A stretch of DNA of 63,302 bases from Deltaproteobacteria bacterium (GTDB taxonomy: Bacteria; Desulfobacterota; Syntrophorhabdia; Syntrophorhabdales; Syntrophorhabdaceae). Of the stretch, positions 199 to 11,695 are shown piece after piece. The notes under the pieces are model-generated. The model did no database searches and was not told where the DNA came from. It saw nothing but the letters and a program-made list of their open reading frames with translations. Where the stretch lies: assembly GCA_029553295.1 (NCBI GenBank), contig JAKPCK010000005.1, positions 1 through 63,302 on the forward strand, in the 5' to 3' direction. A program made the position numbers and the translations under genes. Numbering within the stretch: position 1 is the first letter of the stretch; each line of letters opens with the position of its first letter.

Positions 199-1338
199 AT
201 GATTGAGGCAATAATCAGTGGTGCAAACGGGCTCATAGCAGGATTCATGAACCTGCACTGGTCTAATCCCGTAATGATGGCCATAGGATGTTTACTTCTC
301 TACCTGGGTATTAAAAAGGACTTTGAGCCACTTCTTCTCGTGCCTATTGGATTTGGATGTATCATAGTCAATATCCCTCTTGCAGGGCTTATGGAAAAAG
401 AAGGCTTTTTAAGGACCATATATGATGCCGGTATCATTACCGAACTGTTTCCCCTCCTTATCTTTGTAGGTATTGGTGCTATGACGGATTTTACACCTGT
501 CCTTGAAAACCCCTATACATTCCTCCTTGGTGCAGCAGGTCAGTGCGGTATATTTCTCACATTGCTTCTTGCCCTTGCCCTTGGTTTTAAATACAACGAG
601 GCAGTTACCATAGGCATAATCGGTGCATGTGATGGTCCTACTGTTATCTATGTTGCATCCCAGTATGCCCAGAATCTCCTTGGCCCATGTTCTGTTGCTG
701 CCTACTCCTATATGTCTTTAGTCCCGGTGCTCCAGCCACCTATCATGAGGATACTAACGACAAAAAAAGAGAGGGAGACTATAATGAAGACAGGCAAGAG
801 GACTGTTTCCAAAACCACAAAACTCCTTTTTCCCATTGTCATTACAATTGTAGGTGGTCTAATTGCACCTAAGGGTCTACCGCTTCTTGCCACTATTATG
901 CTCGGCAATTTTATGAAGGAATCCGGTGCAGTTGCAAGACTTACAAAGGCCTCAGAAAATGAGATTACCAATATCGTAACCCTCCTCCTTGGCATATCCA
1001 TCGGTGCCACCATGGATGGAAAGGTCTTTGTCCAGCCCACCACCATCATTATACTGGCACTGGGTCTTATAGCCATATGTCTTGATACAGTATGCGGTAT
1101 TTTGTTCGGTAAAGTCCTATACCTTATAACAGGTGGTAAGATTAACCCGCTTATCGGTGCAGCAGGTATATCTGCCTTCCCCATGTCTGCCCGTGTTGTC
1201 CAGAAAGAAGGGCAGAGGTATAACAAGAAAAACTATCTGCTTATGCATGCCATGGGTGCTAATGCAGGGGGGCAGGTAGGCTCTGTCATGGCAGCAGCGG
1301 TTATGCTCTCTGTTTTAAAGGGTATGGGGGTAATATAG
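199..1338 (+). CDS. oadB: Na+-translocating decarboxylase beta subunit, copy 1
   Basis: This 379-residue polytopic membrane protein belongs to the OadB/GcdB/MmdB family. These subunits remove CO2 from carboxybiotin and export Na+ across the cytoplasmic membrane. Visible family blocks are [15 protein letters not shown] near residues 39-53, IGACDGPTVIY with the conserved Asp145, LQPPIMR, and NPLIGAAGISAFPMSARV near the C terminus, which carries the Ser and Arg implicated in Na+ coupling. Length is typical for the family (375-435). GGAAGGAG precedes the ATG. The gamma-like gene lies just upstream, and the gene ends at a terminator shared with a convergent second copy. The substrate (oxaloacetate, glutaconyl-CoA, methylmalonyl-CoA or malonate) cannot be decided without the alpha subunit. 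Confidence 0.9.
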   Translation: MIEAIISGANGLIAGFMNLHWSNPVMMAIGCLLLYLGIKKDFEPLLLVPIGFGCIIVNIPLAGLMEKEGFLRTIYDAGIITELFPLLIFVGIGAMTDFTPVLENPYTFLLGAAGQCGIFLTLLLALALGFKYNEAVTIGIIGACDGPTVIYVASQYAQNLLGPCSVAAYSYMSLVPVLQPPIMRILTTKKERETIMKTGKRTVSKTTKLLFPIVITIVGGLIAPKGLPLLATIMLGNFMKESGAVARLTKASENEITNIVTLLLGISIGATMDGKVFVQPTTIIILALGLIAICLDTVCGILFGKVLYLITGGKINPLIGAAGISAFPMSARVVQKEGQRYNKKNYLLMHAMGANAGGQVGSVMAAAVMLSVLKGMGVI

Positions 1339-1421: not shown

Positions 1422-2543
1422 CTATTTCAGCATAGCCAGGAATGTCCCTGCTGCCACCGCTGTCCCTATAACACCTGCCACATTGGGTCCCATGGCATGC
1501 ATAAGGAGGAAGTTTTTAGGGTCTGCCTCCTGACCTACCTTCTGGGATACCCGGGCTGCCATAGGCACTGCCGATACACCGGCAGAGCCTATCAATGGAT
1601 TTATCTTTTCCTTCAAAAAAAGATTCATAATCTTGGCAAATATAAGGCCACCAACTGTAGAGAATGCAAAGGCAATAAGACCGAGTAAAAATATAAATAG
1701 AGGTTTTGGGCTTAAAAATACCTCTGCCTTCATGGTAGAACCTACGGCAAGCCCTAAGACAATGGTTACAATATTGAGAAGGTCATTCTGGGCGGTCTTG
1801 AGCAGTCTATCCACTACCTTACATTCTCTAAATAGATTGCCAACCATCAAAAGACCCATAAGGGGTGCTGCATCAGGGGTCAAAAGACATATAACAACTG
1901 TGGCAACCAGAGGGAATATTATCTTCTCTGTTTTTGAAACAGACCTAAGCTGTTTCATCCTTATCTTTCTCTCTGCCTCTGATGTAAGGAGTTTCATAAT
2001 AGGCGGCTGGATTAAGGGCACCATGGCCATATAAGAGTATGCGGCAACAGCAACCATACCCATCATATGGGGGGCGAGGGCTGATGCGAGATATATTGTT
2101 GTTGGGCCATCTGCTCCACCAATTATACCAATAGAGGCTGCCTCTTTAATAGTAAAGCCGAAGAAGATGGAGCCGAAAAATGCTACATAGACACCGAGTT
2201 GGGCTGCGGCACCGAGAAGTAATGTCTTAGGGTTTGCAATCATGGGTCCAAAATCAGTAAGTGCCCCTATGCCGAGAAATATAAGACATGGTATAATCTC
2301 TGTCTCAAGACCGTATTTAAAGAATAGATTAATAAGCTGACCCGGTCCTGTAAGGGGTGCGATAGGCATATTAACGAGGAATATGCTAAAGCCAATGGGG
2401 ACTAAAAGTAATGGTTCAAAGTCCTTTTTTATGGCAAGATACATGAAAAGACATCCGATAAGCCACATTATGACATATCTGTAGTCAAGATGGGGGATAC
2501 CTGTTTTTAAGAATATCTCATACAATACATTCAGTAGCTGCAT
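1422..2543 (-). CDS. oadB: Na+-translocating decarboxylase beta subunit, copy 2
   Basis: This 373-residue polytopic membrane protein is a clear paralog of the beta subunit at 199-1338. It has the same [14 protein letters not shown] block, [11 protein letters not shown] with Asp145 at the identical position, LQPPIMK, and [18 protein letters not shown] near the end. Its Asp-containing motif is the canonical GGADGPT, whereas copy 1 has GACDGPT. The start ATG at 2543 is preceded by GGAGGT, which is embedded in the end of the upstream gamma-like gene, so the two are translationally coupled. Two beta/gamma modules facing each other suggest two decarboxylases with different substrates or a recent duplication. 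Confidence 0.9.
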
Positions 2544-2953: not shown

Positions 2954-3637
2954 ATGAATAGATTCATAGCAGTGGTAGATGATGAACCGGATATATTAGA
3001 GCTTGTCTCTATAAATCTCAAGAAGGCAAACTTTGCTGTTGAGTGTTTTGAAAATGCTGAGTCCTTTTTTAGGTCACTCAAACAAAAAACCCCTGACCTT
3101 GTTATCCTTGATCTGATGTTGCCTGATATGGATGGCTTTGAGGTATGCAAGTCCTTAAAGAGTCATAATAGATATGCATCTATACCTATAATTATGCTTA
3201 CTGCAAGGGTAGATGAAACAGAAAAGGTTTTAGGCCTTGAACTTGGGGCTGATGACTATATAACAAAGCCCTTTTCCCCAAAAGAGATGGTGGCAAGGGT
3301 AAAGGCGGTCTTAAGGAGACACAGACCCTCAGAAGATGTTAAACAATTAATAGACATAGCTGGGACAATATTTATAGATTTGGAAAAATATTCTGTATTA
3401 GTGAATGATAAAAAAGTGGATTTGACATCAACAGAATTCAAGATACTGAGTCTCCTTGCATCAAGGAAAGGCTTTGTATTTTCCAGGGATGCCATCCTTC
3501 AGCATCTATGGGGCAGCGAAAAGATGGTCATAGACAGGACAGTAGATGTCCATATAAAACACCTGAGGGAAAAACTCGGCAGCGCTGCAGGTTTTATAAA
3601 AAATATCAGGGGCTTGGGCTACAAGATAGAGGAATGA
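2954..3637 (+). CDS. phoB: PhoB-type response regulator
   Basis: This 227-residue OmpR/PhoB-family regulator has an N-terminal receiver (residues 4-115) with acidic pocket DDE at 9-11, phosphoacceptor Asp53, Thr83 and Lys105. A C-terminal winged-helix DNA-binding domain follows (about 130-225). The receiver carries LMLPDMDGFEVC, typical of the group. It is followed with a 4-base ATGA overlap by a PhoR-like kinase, and pstSCAB lies 4.4 kb downstream, so control of the phosphate regulon is the best reading. There is no obvious Shine-Dalgarno before the ATG. Other OmpR-family roles are possible, but the neighbourhood favours PhoB. Confidence 0.85.
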   Translation: MNRFIAVVDDEPDILELVSINLKKANFAVECFENAESFFRSLKQKTPDLVILDLMLPDMDGFEVCKSLKSHNRYASIPIIMLTARVDETEKVLGLELGADDYITKPFSPKEMVARVKAVLRRHRPSEDVKQLIDIAGTIFIDLEKYSVLVNDKKVDLTSTEFKILSLLASRKGFVFSRDAILQHLWGSEKMVIDRTVDVHIKHLREKLGSAAGFIKNIRGLGYKIEE

Positions 3638-5358
3638 GGATAAGCATATTTACAAAAAATATGGGGGCCTTTCTCATAGTGGTCCTGCTTTTAGGACTAT
3701 CCATGCCCTTTATAGCTTTCAAAACTATAAAACAACACTATATAGCTACCTTTACCGATAACCTGAAAAACATGACCCTGCTACTCAGACCTGAAATCAC
3801 AGACTTTTTCAGGACTCGAAAACTAAAAGAGATGGATAATTATGTTAAATCGTTCAAGCATAATGTAAATATGCGCATAACTGTTATGGATAGCGATGGG
3901 TTAGTCATAGCTGATTCAGAAAAAGACCCAAGGGTCATGGAAAACCACAGGATGAGACCGGAGTTTATAGACGCAGTTTCAGGAAGGATAGGAAAATCTA
4001 TGCGTTTTAGTGTAACGGTCGAGGAAAAGATGTTGTACGTGGCAGTGCCAATTGTTGCAGATGGAAAAATAATAGGGGTTTTAAGGATAAGCGAATTCTT
4101 AAAGGACATAGAAAACCTCCTTAATGACCTCAGGAACAAAATTATATGGCTGACATTAATAACAGCTACTTTTGCCTTTATAATTACCTTGATTATATCC
4201 AGAGGCATCTCAAAACCCTTAGCAGAGCTTGTTTTAGCAGCTAAACAGGTATCCCAGGGCAACTTTAATGTAAAGGTCTTCTTGAAAAACAATGACGAGC
4301 TCAAGGATCTTGCAGAAAGCTTCAATGAAATGACAATAAAGATGCAGAACATGTTTCAACATCTGGCCAATCAAAAAGAGGAGTTCAACACCATTATCTC
4401 ATCCATTGAAGAACCTCTCTTTGTTTTAAAAAAAGATGGAACAGTAAAGCTATGCAACGAGAGCTTTAAAAGGATTGCCGATAACAGAGAATTAAAAGGA
4501 GGGTATTTCTGGGAATACTGCAGATCCCCTGAACTCGATGACATTGTAAAGAAAGTAAAATTAGAAAGAAAGCACCACCTGGAAGAGATAAAAATAAAGG
4601 ATAGATTTTATCTTTGCAGTTTTACTTTTTTGAATCAGACAGAAGAGATTGTGATTATTTTACAGGACATTACCAGGTTCAAGCAGCTTGAGACACTAAA
4701 AAAGGAGTTTATAGCCAATATATCCCACGAACTAAGGACACCACTTACTGCCATAAAAGGGTTTATAGAAACCCTTGAAGAAGAAGAGCATATCCAGAAT
4801 GTCAGGTATCTCGAGGCCATAAAAAGACATACCAACAGGCTTATGAATATTGTAAATGATATCCTTGTATTGAGCGAACTGGAGAAAGAGGGTATCAGGC
4901 TTGAAAAAGAGGATGTGAATCTTATAGACCTGACAGAAAACATACTGAAGATATTTGAGCAGAGGATAAAGGAAAAGGGTTTGAGTGTTGTCCTTAATGC
5001 ACAGGAAAATATAAGACCTATTAAGGCTGATTCTTTTCGACTTGAACAGATGCTCATAAACCTCATGGACAATGCAATAAAATACACAGAAAAAGGCACA
5101 ATAACGATCTCCATTAACCAGGATGAAGATATATGTATGATTACAGTAGAGGATACGGGTATAGGTATACCAGAAAGCTCTATCCCCCGTATCTTTGAGA
5201 GATTCTATACAGCAGATAAATCCCGTTCAAAAAAATTAGGCGGCACAGGTCTTGGGCTCTCTATTGTCAAACATATTGTGTTACTCCACAAAGGATCCAT
5301 CGATGTCCAGAGTTCATTCGGTAAGGGTACGAAATTTACAATAAAATTACCTATGTAA
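3634..5358 (+). CDS. phoR: PhoR-like membrane sensor histidine kinase
   Basis: Starting at the ATG that overlaps the phoB stop, the protein is 574 residues. A transmembrane helix near residues 9-32 is followed by a periplasmic sensor of about 130 residues, a second helix near 168-190, a HAMP linker (about 190-240) and a PAS-like domain. Next come the phosphoacceptor block ISHELRTPLTAI with His365, then the N box (NLMDNAIKY), DTGIGIP, FERFYTADKSRS and GTGLGLSI of the ATPase domain. It phosphorylates the adjacent response regulator. A longer reading frame upstream exists but would bury the start inside phoB and precede the first membrane helix, so I reject it. The large periplasmic domain differs from E. 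coli PhoR, which has almost none. Confidence 0.87.
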   Translation: MRISIFTKNMGAFLIVVLLLGLSMPFIAFKTIKQHYIATFTDNLKNMTLLLRPEITDFFRTRKLKEMDNYVKSFKHNVNMRITVMDSDGLVIADSEKDPRVMENHRMRPEFIDAVSGRIGKSMRFSVTVEEKMLYVAVPIVADGKIIGVLRISEFLKDIENLLNDLRNKIIWLTLITATFAFIITLIISRGISKPLAELVLAAKQVSQGNFNVKVFLKNNDELKDLAESFNEMTIKMQNMFQHLANQKEEFNTIISSIEEPLFVLKKDGTVKLCNESFKRIADNRELKGGYFWEYCRSPELDDIVKKVKLERKHHLEEIKIKDRFYLCSFTFLNQTEEIVIILQDITRFKQLETLKKEFIANISHELRTPLTAIKGFIETLEEEEHIQNVRYLEAIKRHTNRLMNIVNDILVLSELEKEGIRLEKEDVNLIDLTENILKIFEQRIKEKGLSVVLNAQENIRPIKADSFRLEQMLINLMDNAIKYTEKGTITISINQDEDICMITVEDTGIGIPESSIPRIFERFYTADKSRSKKLGGTGLGLSIVKHIVLLHKGSIDVQSSFGKGTKFTIKLPM

Positions 5359-5470
5359 GTCCTGCAAAACCCTGCAGGGGTCTTGTTATTAAAAGATAAA
5401 GAATTGAAAGGTCTTAGAGGTATACTCTCTTTTTGAAGATAATCTACTTTATCATGAGTCCTTGTTAGGC

Positions 5471-7861
5471 TTATCTGGATTGCGTTCTAACCTGCTTTCG
5501 GACGAAGATAAAATCTCCTCCTTCGTGGCCCACATAGGGCAAATCAGAATACTCCGGGGTCTGAGGTGCATTGGTTACAACTAATTTTCTTATTTCCTCA
5601 AATAGCCTTGTCCCCTCCATAATACCACTATTTTTGTTTAAAACATCAAGAAACATCTTTGCAAAAACAGAATGTCCATGACCACCCTCATCAGCTACTG
5701 GTTCCACACCCCCTGATGTGAGCACCACCCGTGTTTTTTTCTCGGCAAGGCGTCGGAGATAATCTGAACCTTTAGCCGTCAGTGTTACACCCCTTGTTAG
5801 GGTGCCACCATAACAGCTATCTGCTACAATCATAACATGTTTTGCAGTCATGGCTTTTACAGCATCTGAGATATCACTTGTTGAGATCCAATTGGCTGGA
5901 CTATCTGTATCAGCATCAACAGGTAACCAGTATCCCCTACCTGTATCCTTGTCTAAATAACCATGCCCTGCATAATAGATTAAAAGATTGTCCTGTTGCG
6001 TGAGATTTTTCCGTAGATTACTAAAGGCATCCAAAATCTGTTTTCTTGAGGCATCAAGGAGTAAAACAACCTCATAACCATATTCTTTATTTAGCAGGGT
6101 GCTTACAGCCTCAGCATCACTTTTAGCAGTCTTTAATTTTCTCAAATTTTTATATTCATTATTACCTATTACGAGGGCATAGTATTTTCCAAAATTTATA
6201 TATGCGCCCTCTTTTATACGTAAAAGCTCGTCACGCCTTTGTTTGGCTATGTCTGCATATCGGCCCTTGCTATATTTTTCCAAATAGCGATCCATATCTT
6301 TTGGTTCTTTTGAATCCTTAATCGTCTCCCATAACTCTATCTCTTCCCTTTCTGCTTTTAATGCCTCAAGTTGTCTCTCTAACATACGTGCAAGGTCTGC
6401 ATATTTTCCTTTAGGATAGCGTCTTAAGTATTCTTTAAAATCCTCTGGTTTAGAACTCTCTCTAATATTATTCCAAAATGCCATTTCCTCTGTATCGGCC
6501 TTCATGCGTAAAAGGATATCAATTCTTGACTTTGCAAGGTCTGCAAAAAGTCCATCAGGGTATATTTGTAGGTAATTTTTATAATCCTCTATATTTTTGC
6601 TTTGTTCTATCTTTTCCCATATACGTATCTCTAAGTTATCCTGTTTTTCTTTTGCAGCAATAATATTTTCTATTCTTTTTTTGGCCTGGGCTACATATAT
6701 TCCCTGTGGATAGGCATTCAGATATCGGCGCAGATCCTCTGGGTCTGAACTACCCTTTACCTTCTCCCAGAGTGCCTCTTCAACCTCCACCTCTTTGGAA
6801 ACTGATGCTACAGACCTTAAACGTTTTAGCGAGGTTACAGCCATGTCCACAAACAAACCCTTAGGAAACTGCTGCATATAACCCTCAAAATCATTGGGGT
6901 TTTTACTGTCTTTTATCTTGTTCCAATATGCTACATCCTTTTCCAGGGATTCCTTTTCCTCTAATGCCTGAATCTTTGCTTGAGCTGCCCCCAAGAAGGT
7001 GCCTTTCGGGTATTGTTCCAGGTATTTCTTGTAACTCGAGACAGTATTCTGTTTGGAGGCCTCCTCCCATGCACGTTTTTCTGCCTCATCCAATTCGCTC
7101 TTTTTATCCGTAGTTTTATCTGTAGCTGGAATTGCGATGGCAAATGCCTCTGCAGGCAGATTGGCTATTGATGGCAATGCTGCTTCTGTTGACCCTTTTT
7201 TAAGGAGGGTTTTTTTCCTTTCAAATTCCCAGCTAAAATTATTTGAACCACCACCGAGGTTTAGAAAGCCTGCACCAGCTACTGAATAACTACCTTTTAA
7301 AATGCTTTTGTCAAAATCAATTTCATAAATATTGAATTTCATATTATAGGCACCAGGGAAAAATAGCCAAGAACAAACAGGCGTTGTCTCCATAGTAATG
7401 CTCTTTGGTGATGTTACATTAATTGTAACAGGGGCACTGGCACATAAAAGAGGTCCGATCCACCTTACCTTTCCATCCATCATGAATTTTATCTGGGATG
7501 TCTTTTTATCAATGCCAACCTGAAATATGTATGGCTCACTATATGAAGCCATTCCAGGAAAAGGGCCACCTTGTATATACCACCTAATACCTTTTTTTTC
7601 ACATGTCTTACCATCATCCCCTAATGTGCATATATCAGACAGGGTATTCTCATTAGTCCTGATCATAGCAAGGAGGCCCCCGATAATTCTATCCATATCG
7701 AATCTATCTGCAGGCTCACATCTATTATTCAGACATAGGCTTACACCTTCTGGAGGGGCAAAACTGGAGGTAGGGGTTGATGCACAGCCATAGAGATGGA
7801 ATAGAAAAATAAGAAAAGCAGAGATAAATGGAAATTTTTTTATTAATGGGCGCAAATCCAT
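5471..7861 (-). CDS. Caspase-like (peptidase C14) repeat lipoprotein
   Basis: This 796-residue protein has a lipoprotein signal (hydrophobic stretch ending HLYGC, Cys26), an all-beta-looking segment to about residue 230, and six tandem repeats of about 46-50 residues. Each repeat follows the pattern W..I..S..PEDF..YL..YP.G.(F/Y)A..A. A C-terminal caspase-like domain begins near residue 560. The catalytic dyad is visible: His633 in YYAGHG and Cys683 in ADSCYGG, so the protease is probably active. Caspase-like bacterial proteins often act as activated proteases in signalling or defence. This one is predicted to be membrane-anchored outside the cytoplasm. It lies between phoBR and pstSCAB but on the opposite strand, with no obvious partner. 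The exact role is unknown. Confidence 0.8.
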   Translation of the reverse strand: MDLRPLIKKFPFISAFLIFLFHLYGCASTPTSSFAPPEGVSLCLNNRCEPADRFDMDRIIGGLLAMIRTNENTLSDICTLGDDGKTCEKKGIRWYIQGGPFPGMASYSEPYIFQVGIDKKTSQIKFMMDGKVRWIGPLLCASAPVTINVTSPKSITMETTPVCSWLFFPGAYNMKFNIYEIDFDKSILKGSYSVAGAGFLNLGGGSNNFSWEFERKKTLLKKGSTEAALPSIANLPAEAFAIAIPATDKTTDKKSELDEAEKRAWEEASKQNTVSSYKKYLEQYPKGTFLGAAQAKIQALEEKESLEKDVAYWNKIKDSKNPNDFEGYMQQFPKGLFVDMAVTSLKRLRSVASVSKEVEVEEALWEKVKGSSDPEDLRRYLNAYPQGIYVAQAKKRIENIIAAKEKQDNLEIRIWEKIEQSKNIEDYKNYLQIYPDGLFADLAKSRIDILLRMKADTEEMAFWNNIRESSKPEDFKEYLRRYPKGKYADLARMLERQLEALKAEREEIELWETIKDSKEPKDMDRYLEKYSKGRYADIAKQRRDELLRIKEGAYINFGKYYALVIGNNEYKNLRKLKTAKSDAEAVSTLLNKEYGYEVVLLLDASRKQILDAFSNLRKNLTQQDNLLIYYAGHGYLDKDTGRGYWLPVDADTDSPANWISTSDISDAVKAMTAKHVMIVADSCYGGTLTRGVTLTAKGSDYLRRLAEKKTRVVLTSGGVEPVADEGGHGHSVFAKMFLDVLNKNSGIMEGTRLFEEIRKLVVTNAPQTPEYSDLPYVGHEGGDFIFVRKQVRTQSR

Positions 7862-7952
7862 TGTTATTTATCCATTATTTTCAAAGGCCTTATTTAAAAA
7901 TATTTTAATTTGTTTTTTAGATTATTTCAATACTGTCGATTCGGCTAGTCTT

Positions 7953-7974
7953 AAAAATTAACCAAAAATTAACA
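7953..7974 (+). promoter_or_regulatory. Candidate Pho box upstream of pstS
   Basis: AAAAATTAAC occurs twice with an exact 11-bp period (7953-7962 and 7964-7973). PhoB binds two 11-bp direct repeats, so period and location (77 bases before pstS, behind an AT-rich possible -10) fit. The repeat sequence itself is not the E. coli CTGTCAT consensus, so this is an inference. Confidence 0.45.
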
Positions 7975-8050: not shown

Positions 8051-9106
8051 ATGTTTAAATGGTTAAAGGTATTAAGTTTTTTTGTATGTATCTTGATAGT
8101 AGGTTTTTCGGGTTTAAATGTTTATGCTGCAGAAGGTGAACTCATAGGTGCAGGTGCAACATTCCCCCAGCCCCTATATTCGAAGATGTTTGATATTTAT
8201 TTTCAGCAACATAAAATCAAGATTAATTATCAGGGTATTGGCTCAGGTGGCGGTATAAACCAGCTTATTAAAAAGACTGTGGATTTTGTTGGTACAGATG
8301 CATTTATGACAGAGAAGGAATTAAAGGATGCCGGTGCACCTGTTTTGCATATACCTACATGTCTTGGTGCTGTGGTTATTACCTATAATCTCCCTGGCAA
8401 CCCTAAATTGAAATTAACACCTGATGTAATTGCCCATATCTTCCTCGGAAATATTAAAAAATGGAATGACCCAAAGATAGCAGGTATCAACAAAGATGTA
8501 AAGCTGCCTGATCTGTCTATCACTGTTGTAAGAAGGGCTGATGGCAGCGGCACCACATATATATTCAGTGAATATCTAAGTAAGGTAAGCAGTGCCTGGA
8601 AGGAAAAGATGGGAACAGGCAAATCACTTAACTGGCCTGAAGGCTTTATTGGTCAGAAGGGAAACCCAGGGGTTGCTGGCTATATTAAACAGACCCCTGG
8701 AGCAGTGGGCTATGTAGAGCTCTTATATGCCCTTCAAAACCAGATGGCCTTTGCCAGCATAAAAAATAAGGCGGGTAACTTCATTGAACCAACACCAAAA
8801 ACAGTAAGCAATGCAGCCAAGGTAAAGATCCCTGATGATACAAATGTATCCCTTACTGATACCAGTGCAAAAGACGGCTACCCCATTAGCGGTTTTACAT
8901 GGCTTATATTCTATAAAGAGCAGAATTATGCCGGAAGGTCAAAACAGAGGGCAGAATCCCTTGCCAAGATGCTTATGTGGGTTGTTACAGATGGACAGAA
9001 ATATGTAGAGCCTCTTCAGTATTCACCCCTTCCAAAAGAGGCGTCAACCGCTGCCCAGAAGATTATAAAAAGCATGACCTATAATGGAAAACCAATACTT
9101 AATTAA
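8051..9106 (+). CDS. pstS: Phosphate ABC transporter, substrate-binding protein
   Basis: This 351-residue periplasmic protein has a signal peptide (cleavage likely after NVYA, about residue 26). Family motifs are GAGATFPQPLY, GSGGGI, VDFVGTDAFM, RRADGSGTT and PGAVGYVEL, which form the phosphate pocket of PstS. It captures inorganic phosphate with high affinity and delivers it to the PstC/PstA channel. CCGGAGG lies seven bases before the ATG. It is the first gene of pstSCAB, with only five bases before pstC. Expression is probably PhoB-dependent through the repeats at 7953-7974. Confidence 0.95.
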   Translation: MFKWLKVLSFFVCILIVGFSGLNVYAAEGELIGAGATFPQPLYSKMFDIYFQQHKIKINYQGIGSGGGINQLIKKTVDFVGTDAFMTEKELKDAGAPVLHIPTCLGAVVITYNLPGNPKLKLTPDVIAHIFLGNIKKWNDPKIAGINKDVKLPDLSITVVRRADGSGTTYIFSEYLSKVSSAWKEKMGTGKSLNWPEGFIGQKGNPGVAGYIKQTPGAVGYVELLYALQNQMAFASIKNKAGNFIEPTPKTVSNAAKVKIPDDTNVSLTDTSAKDGYPISGFTWLIFYKEQNYAGRSKQRAESLAKMLMWVVTDGQKYVEPLQYSPLPKEASTAAQKIIKSMTYNGKPILN

Positions 9107-9111
9107 CTGAG

Positions 9112-10005
9112 ATGACAAAGACAGATAAATCAGAAAGAAGGTTTACAAACATAATCTTTATATCGGGGCTATCAATAATTGTCCTCCTCCTTGCCATATT
9201 CTCCACACTCTTGATAGCCTCGATACCATCCATCAAGACCTTTGGTATTGGTTTTTTTATAAGCAAACACTGGGATCCTTCCCTTGAGAAATTCGGTGCC
9301 CTACCCTTCTTGTATGGGACGCTGATAACATCTATTATAGCCCTTTTTATCTCCATACCCTTTTCCATTTCCATCTCCATTTTTCTTGGTGAGTTTTTTA
9401 GAGAGGGGTTTATCTCAAACTTCTTAAGGAGTTCCACTGAGGTCCTTGCCGGTATACCCTCTGTAATATACGGACTCTGGGGACTCTTTCTTCTTATGCC
9501 CATAACAAGATTTATCCAGACATCCCTCGGCACCACCCCCTACGGAGTCGGGATCTTTACAGCATCTCTTATACTGGCCATTATGATTATACCCTTTTCA
9601 GCATCCATCGGTAGAGAGGTCATATCCTTAATACCTGCTGATTTAAAAGAGGCTGCGTATTCCCTTGGCGCAACAAGATTTGAGGTGATAAAAAACATAA
9701 TAATCCCTTATGCCCGCTCCGGCATCATAGCAGGGATACTCCTTGCATTCGGTCGGGCAATAGGTGAGACTATGGCAGTTACCATGCTTATAGGAAACAG
9801 CAATTTCCTGCCCAAGAGCATATTCAGTCCTGCCAATACTATGGCAAGTGTTATAGCCAATGAATTTGCCGAATCTACAGGTATTACTGCATCATCTCTT
9901 ATATACATAGGACTTGTCCTTTTTCTTGTTACCATGTTTGTAAATATAGCCGGGACCTATATTATAAAAAAGATAAGCCTTGAGGCATCCAAGGAGGTGA
10001 CATAG
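9112..10005 (+). CDS. pstC: Phosphate ABC transporter permease PstC
   Basis: This 297-residue inner-membrane protein has about six transmembrane helices and the binding-protein-dependent permease domain, with the EAA-loop motif DLKEAAYSLGATRFEVI near residue 180. It pairs with PstA to form the phosphate channel. Its position between pstS and pstA fixes the assignment. The final codons contain AAGGAGGTGA, which is the ribosome binding site of pstA, so the two are translationally coupled. Confidence 0.93.
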   Translation: MTKTDKSERRFTNIIFISGLSIIVLLLAIFSTLLIASIPSIKTFGIGFFISKHWDPSLEKFGALPFLYGTLITSIIALFISIPFSISISIFLGEFFREGFISNFLRSSTEVLAGIPSVIYGLWGLFLLMPITRFIQTSLGTTPYGVGIFTASLILAIMIIPFSASIGREVISLIPADLKEAAYSLGATRFEVIKNIIIPYARSGIIAGILLAFGRAIGETMAVTMLIGNSNFLPKSIFSPANTMASVIANEFAESTGITASSLIYIGLVLFLVTMFVNIAGTYIIKKISLEASKEVT

Positions 10006-10955
10006 TGAATACTGCTGAAAACATAGCTGAAAATATAGAAGACACAAATATGCATAAGATAATACCCTTTCCTTCTCCTTTACGCATCCATGAAGATAAA
10101 ACTCTACGGAATAATAGTCCAGTAGGCTATAGGATCTTTAAAGACAAGTTATTTAAATGCCTTGTTATCATCCTGTCTATCTTGAGTTTTTTACCATTAC
10201 TCCTTGTCCTCTTCCACATCACAAAAAACGGCATATCAGTGATAAATTGGGGTTTTTTGACAGAACTGCCCCTCCCTATAGGTGAAAAAGGTGGTGGTGT
10301 TTTTAACTCCATCATCGGCTCTCTCATACTAATAATCCTCTCCAGTATCATATCTATCCCCCTTGGCATATCAGCAGGTATTTATCTTGCAGAAAAAAAT
10401 AAGGGCAGGATTGCAAATATAATAAATCTGTGTATAGTAGTACTTCAGGGGACACCCTCAATTGTTATAGGCATAATCACATACATATGGGTTGTGGCAC
10501 CTTTAGGTGGCTTTTCAGCTTTATCAGGTGGCATTGCCTTGAGCATCATGATGCTACCTGTTATAATAAAATCTACAGAAGAGACACTAAAGCTCATACC
10601 ATATCACCTCAAGGAGGCATCCCTTGCCCTCGGTGTCCCTTACTACAAAACAATACTCAAGGTTATCCTGCCTACAGGCTTAAGCGGTATCTTAACGGGT
10701 ATACTCCTCAGTGTGGCAAGGATTACTGGTGAGACAGCTCCACTGCTTTTCACTGCCTTTGGTAATCAATTTTTAAATTACAATATTCTCAAACCTATAG
10801 ACTCGCTCCCTTACCGTATATTCTATTATGCCATGAGCCCCTACCCGGAGTGGCATACCTTTGCATGGGGTGCATCTTTTATACTTGTGATGATTGTCCT
10901 GTCTTTTAATCTTATAGCGAGAGGTATATCAGCTAAATGGAAAGTCCAATTCTAA
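10005..10955 (+). CDS. pstA: Phosphate ABC transporter permease PstA
   Basis: This 316-residue permease starts at GTG 10005, overlapping the pstC stop by one base, with AAGGAGGTGA at 9991-10000. It has about six membrane helices after a long N-terminal cytoplasmic segment of about 55 residues, and an EAA loop reading [16 protein letters not shown]. The N-terminal extension is longer than in many PstA proteins. It forms the translocation pore with PstC. Its last 19 bases overlap pstB. Confidence 0.93.
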
Positions 10956-11695
10956 GCGTAGAGAATTTTTCTGCCTTCTTTGGCGAGAATCAGATTCTAA
11001 GGGATATAAGCATAAATACATCGCCCAATAAGGTAACAGCACTTATGGGACCTTCAGGTTGTGGTAAGACCACGCTCATCCGTTGTATAAACAGGATGCA
11101 CGAATTAATTCCAGGTGCAAGGGTATCAGGGAAGATATACCTTAAAAAACAGGATATCTACATGATGGAGCCCATAGTCTTGAGGAGAAAGATAGGTATG
11201 GTCTTTCAAAAACCCAATCCGTTTCCAATGATGAGCATATACGACAATGTAATAGCAGGTTATAAACTAAACGGGATAAAGCTCAAAAAAGATGAGTCTG
11301 ATAGTATCGTGGAGCGCTCTCTAAGGAATGCTGCCCTGTGGAATGAGGTCAAGGATTCACTCCACAGAAAGGGGACATTTCTGTCCGGTGGGCAACAACA
11401 GAGGCTTTGCATTGCCCGTGCCCTTGCCATGAACCCTGAGATACTGCTTCTTGACGAACCTACATCTGCCCTTGACCCTAAGTCTACAGCCCATATAGAG
11501 GAGTTGATTGTAGAGTTAAAACAAAATGTCACCATGTTGCTTGTAACCCACAACATTGCCCAGGCTGCCAGGGTATCTGACTTTACAGCATTTATTTATC
11601 TCGGTGAACTTATAGAGTTTGGTCCAACTGAAAAGATGTTCACCGTCCCCAAGGACAAGAGGACAGAGGAGTATCTTACAGGCAAATTCGGGTAG
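10937..11695 (+). CDS. pstB: Phosphate ABC transporter ATP-binding protein
   Basis: This 252-residue ATPase has Walker [10 protein letters not shown] (Lys44), signature [16 protein letters not shown], Walker [14 protein letters not shown] and switch His in LLVTHN. It hydrolyses ATP on the cytoplasmic face to drive phosphate import. It overlaps the end of pstA by 19 bases, completing a four-gene transporter operon. The usual next gene, phoU, is absent; ispG follows after about 95 bases. Confidence 0.95.

Follow-up and report, generated by a model that had tools for sequence, protein, structure and literature searches.

The 63,302-nucleotide stretch of DNA analysed here (the window) carries a gene for a caspase-domain protein between the phosphate genes phoBR and pstSCAB, and this arrangement raises the question of whether the caspase is part of the phosphate system. 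The open reading frame (5471-7861, minus strand) starts with ATG, encodes 796 amino acids with a Pfam caspase domain and is a real gene; its product is a probable lipoprotein of the envelope. phoB and phoR (2954-5358) and pstS, pstC, pstA and pstB (8051-11695), identified from the list of reading frames, Pfam and comparison with relatives, are all on the plus strand, so that the position and opposite orientation given in a preliminary description of this DNA are correct. A convergent, similar-looking gene pair (199-1338, plus strand; 1422-2543, minus strand) adjoins phoBR; its products resemble OadB/GcdB-type sodium-pump decarboxylase subunits.

The phoR-pstS junction was checked in six genomes of the family and could be read in three: G002, of the same genus, and G003 and G015, of the same family. 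The PstS proteins of these genomes are 86-88% identical to that of the window, and the PhoR proteins 72-73%. In all three, phoR and pstS are adjacent without a caspase gene: the PhoR and PstS alignments are separated by about 106-118 bp, with no caspase match between them. The gene order is phoB-phoR-pstS-pstC in each, continuing to pstA-pstB-ispG in the two with a stretch long enough, and the flanks in G002 are collinear from phoB through phoR, pstSCAB and ispG to der, at 73-92% identity. The junctions of the remaining genomes were unreadable: in G014 it was split between contigs, the 1.4 kb that follow phoR showing no caspase match; in G004 no pstS match was present in the stretch read; and in G001 PstS was 45% identical and the phoR match was only partial, at 30%.

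BLASTN alignments of the window flanks stop at 5340-5354, 2-16 bp ahead of the phoR stop codon, and resume about 2.6 kb later, at 7952-7954. The segment absent in the three relatives (5359-7951, ends approximate) thus extends from the phoR stop codon to a Pho-box-like site, and contains the caspase gene and a promoter-like site. Since the match of the flanks breaks and then resumes at the Pho-box-like site, the caspase gene is most simply explained as one insertion between phoR and pstS and not as a conserved part of the phosphate system. Three collinear empty junctions, together with a close orthologue in a distant genome (see below), favour gain over loss as the direction of the change. Neither a target-site duplication nor a transposase was noticed by eye at the ends of the insert. 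The GC content of the gene (0.40) matches that of the window (0.41) and not that of the orthologues (0.46-0.57), so the transfer would not be recent, but old enough for the composition to adapt.

The Pho-box-like repeat, TTAACCAAAAATTAACA (7958-7974, plus strand), lies before pstS and was found by pattern search and comparison of relatives. It is the sole exact TTAACM-N5-TTAACM match in the 2.25-Mb genome and is likely a Pho box, presumably of the 11-bp-spaced TTAACA kind. Its counterpart is kept in all three relatives that are free of the caspase gene, and the site therefore belongs to pstS. The caspase gene has a promoter-like site (TTGAAA-17-TAAAAT, 10 of 12; 7902-7930, minus strand) inside the insert; the region holds six such sites against a mean of 8.6 in shuffled sequences, that is, no enrichment. 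A weak terminator-like hairpin follows phoR directly (5360-5379, plus strand), and terminator-like sites in the region number four, against a mean of 2.4 in shuffles.

Three orthologues of the caspase protein were found, 56-70% identical to it. The one in G242, a genome from another family of the phylum, is full-length and 70% identical over 785 residues. The orthologue in G426 (same contig as DYRD01000004.1) is 62-64% identical overall, with one repeat shortened and a frameshift near its start, and that on JAUVXZ010000100.1 (56%) is cut by the contig end. The frameshift lies in the N-terminal domain (L060:10050-10365) and could be due to a sequencing error or to decay of the gene. No match to the window PhoB, PhoR, PstSCAB, IspG or Der proteins was obtained around the three orthologues (19.9, 22.2 and 11.4 kb, the L061 stretch covering one side of its orthologue only), and the G242 genome gave no match to the window PstS at E 0.001. 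At the DNA level, similarity to the orthologues does not extend beyond the coding region. The preliminary description had suggested a possible response to phosphate and, as a check, conservation beside pst genes in relatives; such conservation is absent at every readable junction and in the stretches read around all three orthologues. A link of the caspase to phosphate is accordingly not supported, its basis being the place at which the gene was inserted.

Caspase-domain genes as such are ordinary in the family of the window. At E 1e-15, 4 of 38 other genomes match the caspase protein, in each case only from residue 539 onward, and the full-length orthologue of 70% identity lies by contrast in another family. 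At E 0.001 there are matches in 21 of 36 other genomes, and these fall without exception in the caspase domain. The genome itself encodes a protein with CARDB and caspase domains and a signal-like N-terminus (L043:1950-3644, minus strand), and at the contig end of L044 the C-terminal end of a second further caspase, which by eye is like the long caspases of relatives. Pattern searches for viral carriers matched 70 stretches, none with an encoded relative. Among plasmids 171 records matched, none of which covers 80% of the query at a single place; the ten matches listed cover the repeats, the caspase or both, and the N-terminal domain alone matched none.

Residues 1-26 (7784-7861, minus strand) resemble a signal peptide with a lipobox-like end, L-Y-G-Cys26, after a hydrophobic stretch; the Tyr at -2 is unusual. 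The best hydrophobic stretch scored 2.19 by a simple rule, against 0.70-1.21 in four cytosolic controls and 2.72 in PstS, the rule taking the best of any start within the first 80 codons and the controls being scored from the called start. The protein is thus likely, as judged from these features, to be a lipoprotein. The L060 copy (the G426 orthologue) has a lipobox-like LGG-C, and in the G242 orthologue the signal may be of the ordinary cleaved type. An export-like N-terminus was found by this lenient rule in 10 of the 12 caspase genes that were readable and usable, out of 29 caspase loci with the own genome included; in 16 the N-terminus lay beyond the stretch, and L025 had no usable start.

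The N-terminal domain (residues about 39-222, some 185 amino acids; 7196-7747, minus strand) is absent from the preliminary description and matched no family in Pfam (E 0.1) or NCBIfam (E 1). Among 395 genomes sampled from the phylum, 6 carry it at E 0.001 and 5 with a five-row profile at E 1e-4, the own genome being included in both counts. The other carriers by profile are G242, G195, G398 and G120; G373 was a marginal candidate (6.0e-4), unconfirmed by the profile at 1e-4, and was discarded. The G242 protein has the same architecture as that of the window. The G195 and G398 proteins (L040:7867-10128 and L042:7964-10045) have the N-terminal domain and the caspase in common with it but differ in that CARDB domains replace the helical repeats ahead of the caspase; the L040 protein (G195) has a lipobox-like LWG-C, and in G398 only part of the N-terminal domain is matched, in a frame that contains a TAG. 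The G120 protein (L041:1269-2411, minus strand) is 380 amino acids long and combines a lipobox-like start and the N-terminal domain with no Pfam match, which suggests that the domain is a module common to several proteins. A model of the N-terminal domain only, built from two sequences, was too poor for use (mean pLDDT 45.4).

Six helical repeats of about 48 residues (W...YP.G) follow, at residues 265-552 (6206-7069, minus strand), starting at Trp265, 313, 365, 415, 463 and 511. Their pairwise scores (49-96) exceed in 15 of 15 cases the highest score among 1,000 shuffled pairs (43), confirming the tandem repeats of the preliminary description. In an AlphaFold model built from three sequences, which is confident for the repeats only, they form alternating short and long helices with pLDDT mostly 70-89 over residues 260-550; the whole-protein model has a mean pLDDT of 56.8, falling below 50 from residue 682 onward. 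The repeats gave no match to the Pfam TPR model. Foldseek searches with the model returned BamD entries below E 0.001, but with an rmsd near 30, a weak match. BamD/YfiO has no caspase, and the scores stayed below the curated cut-offs: 28.4 against 81.4 bits for TIGR03302 and, for YfiO with the G242 orthologue, 20.9 against 25 bits. By eye and by BLAST, the W...YL..YP.G repeat is also seen on a Shinella caspase (WP_272807880.1), which has two repeats placed after the caspase where the window protein has six, and on a Rhizobium cyclase (WP_131711484.1), again with two.

The caspase (Peptidase_C14) domain occupies residues about 556-790 (5492-6196, minus strand). Pfam matched residues 561-772 with E 3.3e-25 and 89.6 bits (cut-off 21.4). 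The score against the model for EACC1-associated caspases (NF047832) was 76.9, under its 140-bit cut-off. The catalytic dyad consists of His633 in YYAGHGY (codon 5963-5965) and Cys683 in DSCYGG (codon 5813-5815, both minus strand); both residues are exactly where they had been described and are invariant in alignments with the three orthologues. A sequence profile from the three orthologues matched GSU0716 of Geobacter sulfurreducens (E 3.8e-8), MALT1 and yeast metacaspase. In the modelled core, a caspase fold is supported: near E 1e-5 Foldseek matched MALT1, GSU0716 and the metacaspases of yeast and Candida, and VIA-align gave Z 13.2 and rmsd 3.9 over 160 aligned residues of Yca1. This bears out the expectation of a caspase fold in the predicted structure. 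TM-scores among the entries listed were 0.06-0.15, being normalised by the whole model, of which one domain only matches. As pLDDT is below 50 from residue 682, the model is poor for the C-terminal portion of the active site, which includes Cys683. Asp582 is aligned with an Asp of MALT1 that is a residue of the basic S1 pocket, and Asp681 stands two residues ahead of Cys683. Identity to the G242 orthologue is 193/235 residues in the caspase domain, 131/184 in the N-terminal domain and 203/288 in the repeats. The caspase domain is the best-conserved part at the sequence level, and with dN about 0.10 and dS saturated the pattern fits purifying selection.

In the explanation that we hold to be probable, the gene encodes a cysteine protease of the caspase clan (orthocaspase/metacaspase type) that is exported and probably anchored by a lipid, and it was acquired horizontally and inserted between phoR and pstS together with its own promoter-like site. 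Horizontal transfer into the lineage, followed by the insertion, is the most likely course of events. Judging from the anatomy of the protein, its attachment to the envelope would be through Cys26. The N-terminal domain, together with the six TPR/BamD-like repeats, would serve to hold or sense a partner, and the C-terminal caspase would cut an envelope protein close by, with a basic residue probably preceding the cut. Switching may be partner-gated, with a partner or stress signal releasing the caspase. Lipidation, protease activity and the basic P1 preference are predictions from sequence; no partner, substrate or trigger gene was evident. Of the envelope-anchored protease responding to phosphate or envelope stress in the preliminary description, the intact caspase-fold domain, the export signal and the probable anchoring are supported, and the phosphate link is not.

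The gene might have been recruited to the Pho regulon after the insertion, through the Pho-box-like site of pstS read in the other direction, and its product would then act as an envelope protease in phosphate starvation. The caspase gene starts about 96 bp from that site, the only exact match to the pattern in the genome, and its transcription runs in the direction leading away from the site. Against this, the conservation of the site in relatives that have no caspase gene assigns it to pstS, a promoter-like site of the caspase lies within the insert (the number of such sites being not above chance), and the stretches read around the orthologues contain no pho/pst gene, one of the orthologues belonging to a genome that gave no match for the window PstS. 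We consider such recruitment unlikely, a judgement that is slightly tempered, as is that on the inserted, exported protease, by the fact that only three of the six family junctions were readable. An error of assembly or binning, conceivable for an assembly of 157 contigs, is very improbable, both flanks sharing their gene order with G002, a member of the same genus, and the GC content matching; a misbinned contig was rejected on the collinearity.

The protease could also be a cell-death or anti-phage effector, which on a trigger at the surface would kill its own cell or neighbouring ones. The PADLOC caspase model matched (E 3.3e-12, run on the window protein only), and the distribution is patchy; the six pho/pst neighbours, however, include no defence gene by Pfam, no partner was identified, and the export signal does not suit effectors of the intracellular type. 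Cell death or fratricide has been proposed for surface-acting caspases in a 2012 survey (PMC3501461), and still we regard this role as rather improbable here. Inactive orthocaspases serving as scaffolds are discussed in another article (PMC6426788), and a pseudo-enzyme in which the repeats and the N-terminal domain do the work while the caspase domain only binds is given a slim chance, in view of the invariant dyad in what is the most conserved part of the protein. The exported protease thus remains the preferred reading. With it the tempting link between caspase and phosphate sensing is removed, as the three empty junctions point to an insertion; the interest that remains lies in the exported caspases with an unnamed N-terminal module in some genomes of the phylum, which would make a role of bacterial caspases outside the cytoplasm testable in a single-gene system.

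The orthocaspase and metacaspase subtypes are told apart by the presence or absence of the p10 domain; the model of the window protein is poor in its C-terminal part, where this distinction would be read. The window protein has the caspase domain and the His/Cys dyad in common with both, and differs in its additional N-terminal domain without a Pfam family and in repeats unmatched by the Pfam TPR model. GSU0716 (PDB 3bij), the best solved sequence relative, which matches in the DSC region, is a 285-residue chain without the N-terminal domain and the repeats. The MALT1 paracaspase, similar in sequence (residues 561-653) and in fold, is eukaryotic and has a different domain context. The 2012 survey (PMC3501461) describes bacterial caspases as abundant in Deltaproteobacteria, with horizontal transfer as a possibility, and reports TPR, WD40 and Sel1 repeats as well as N-terminal helices, possibly signal peptides. 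The claim of an architecture different from known metacaspases consequently holds for the N-terminal domain and not for the repeats: TPR-type repeats and probable signal peptides on bacterial caspases had been published, and the repeat itself occurs on another caspase and on a cyclase. Among the titles searched, no paper on the combination of N-terminal domain, repeats and caspase was noticed, which is no proof of absence. The N-terminal module is the one new element of the caspase protein. More tentatively, and with some doubt, it might be an envelope sensor swapped among outputs (helical repeats with caspase, CARDB with caspase, or no caspase), in which case the proteins would make up a family of caspase switches that work outside the cytoplasm, each in one piece, anchored in the envelope and gated by a partner.

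A DUF4384-type gene was not found in L039, L060, L061, L043, L044 or the window. It adjoins each of the G195 and G398 genes for the N-terminal domain, CARDB and caspase, as a pair (L040:7867-11012 and L042:7964-11346), and the two DUF4384-type proteins are 40% identical to one another.
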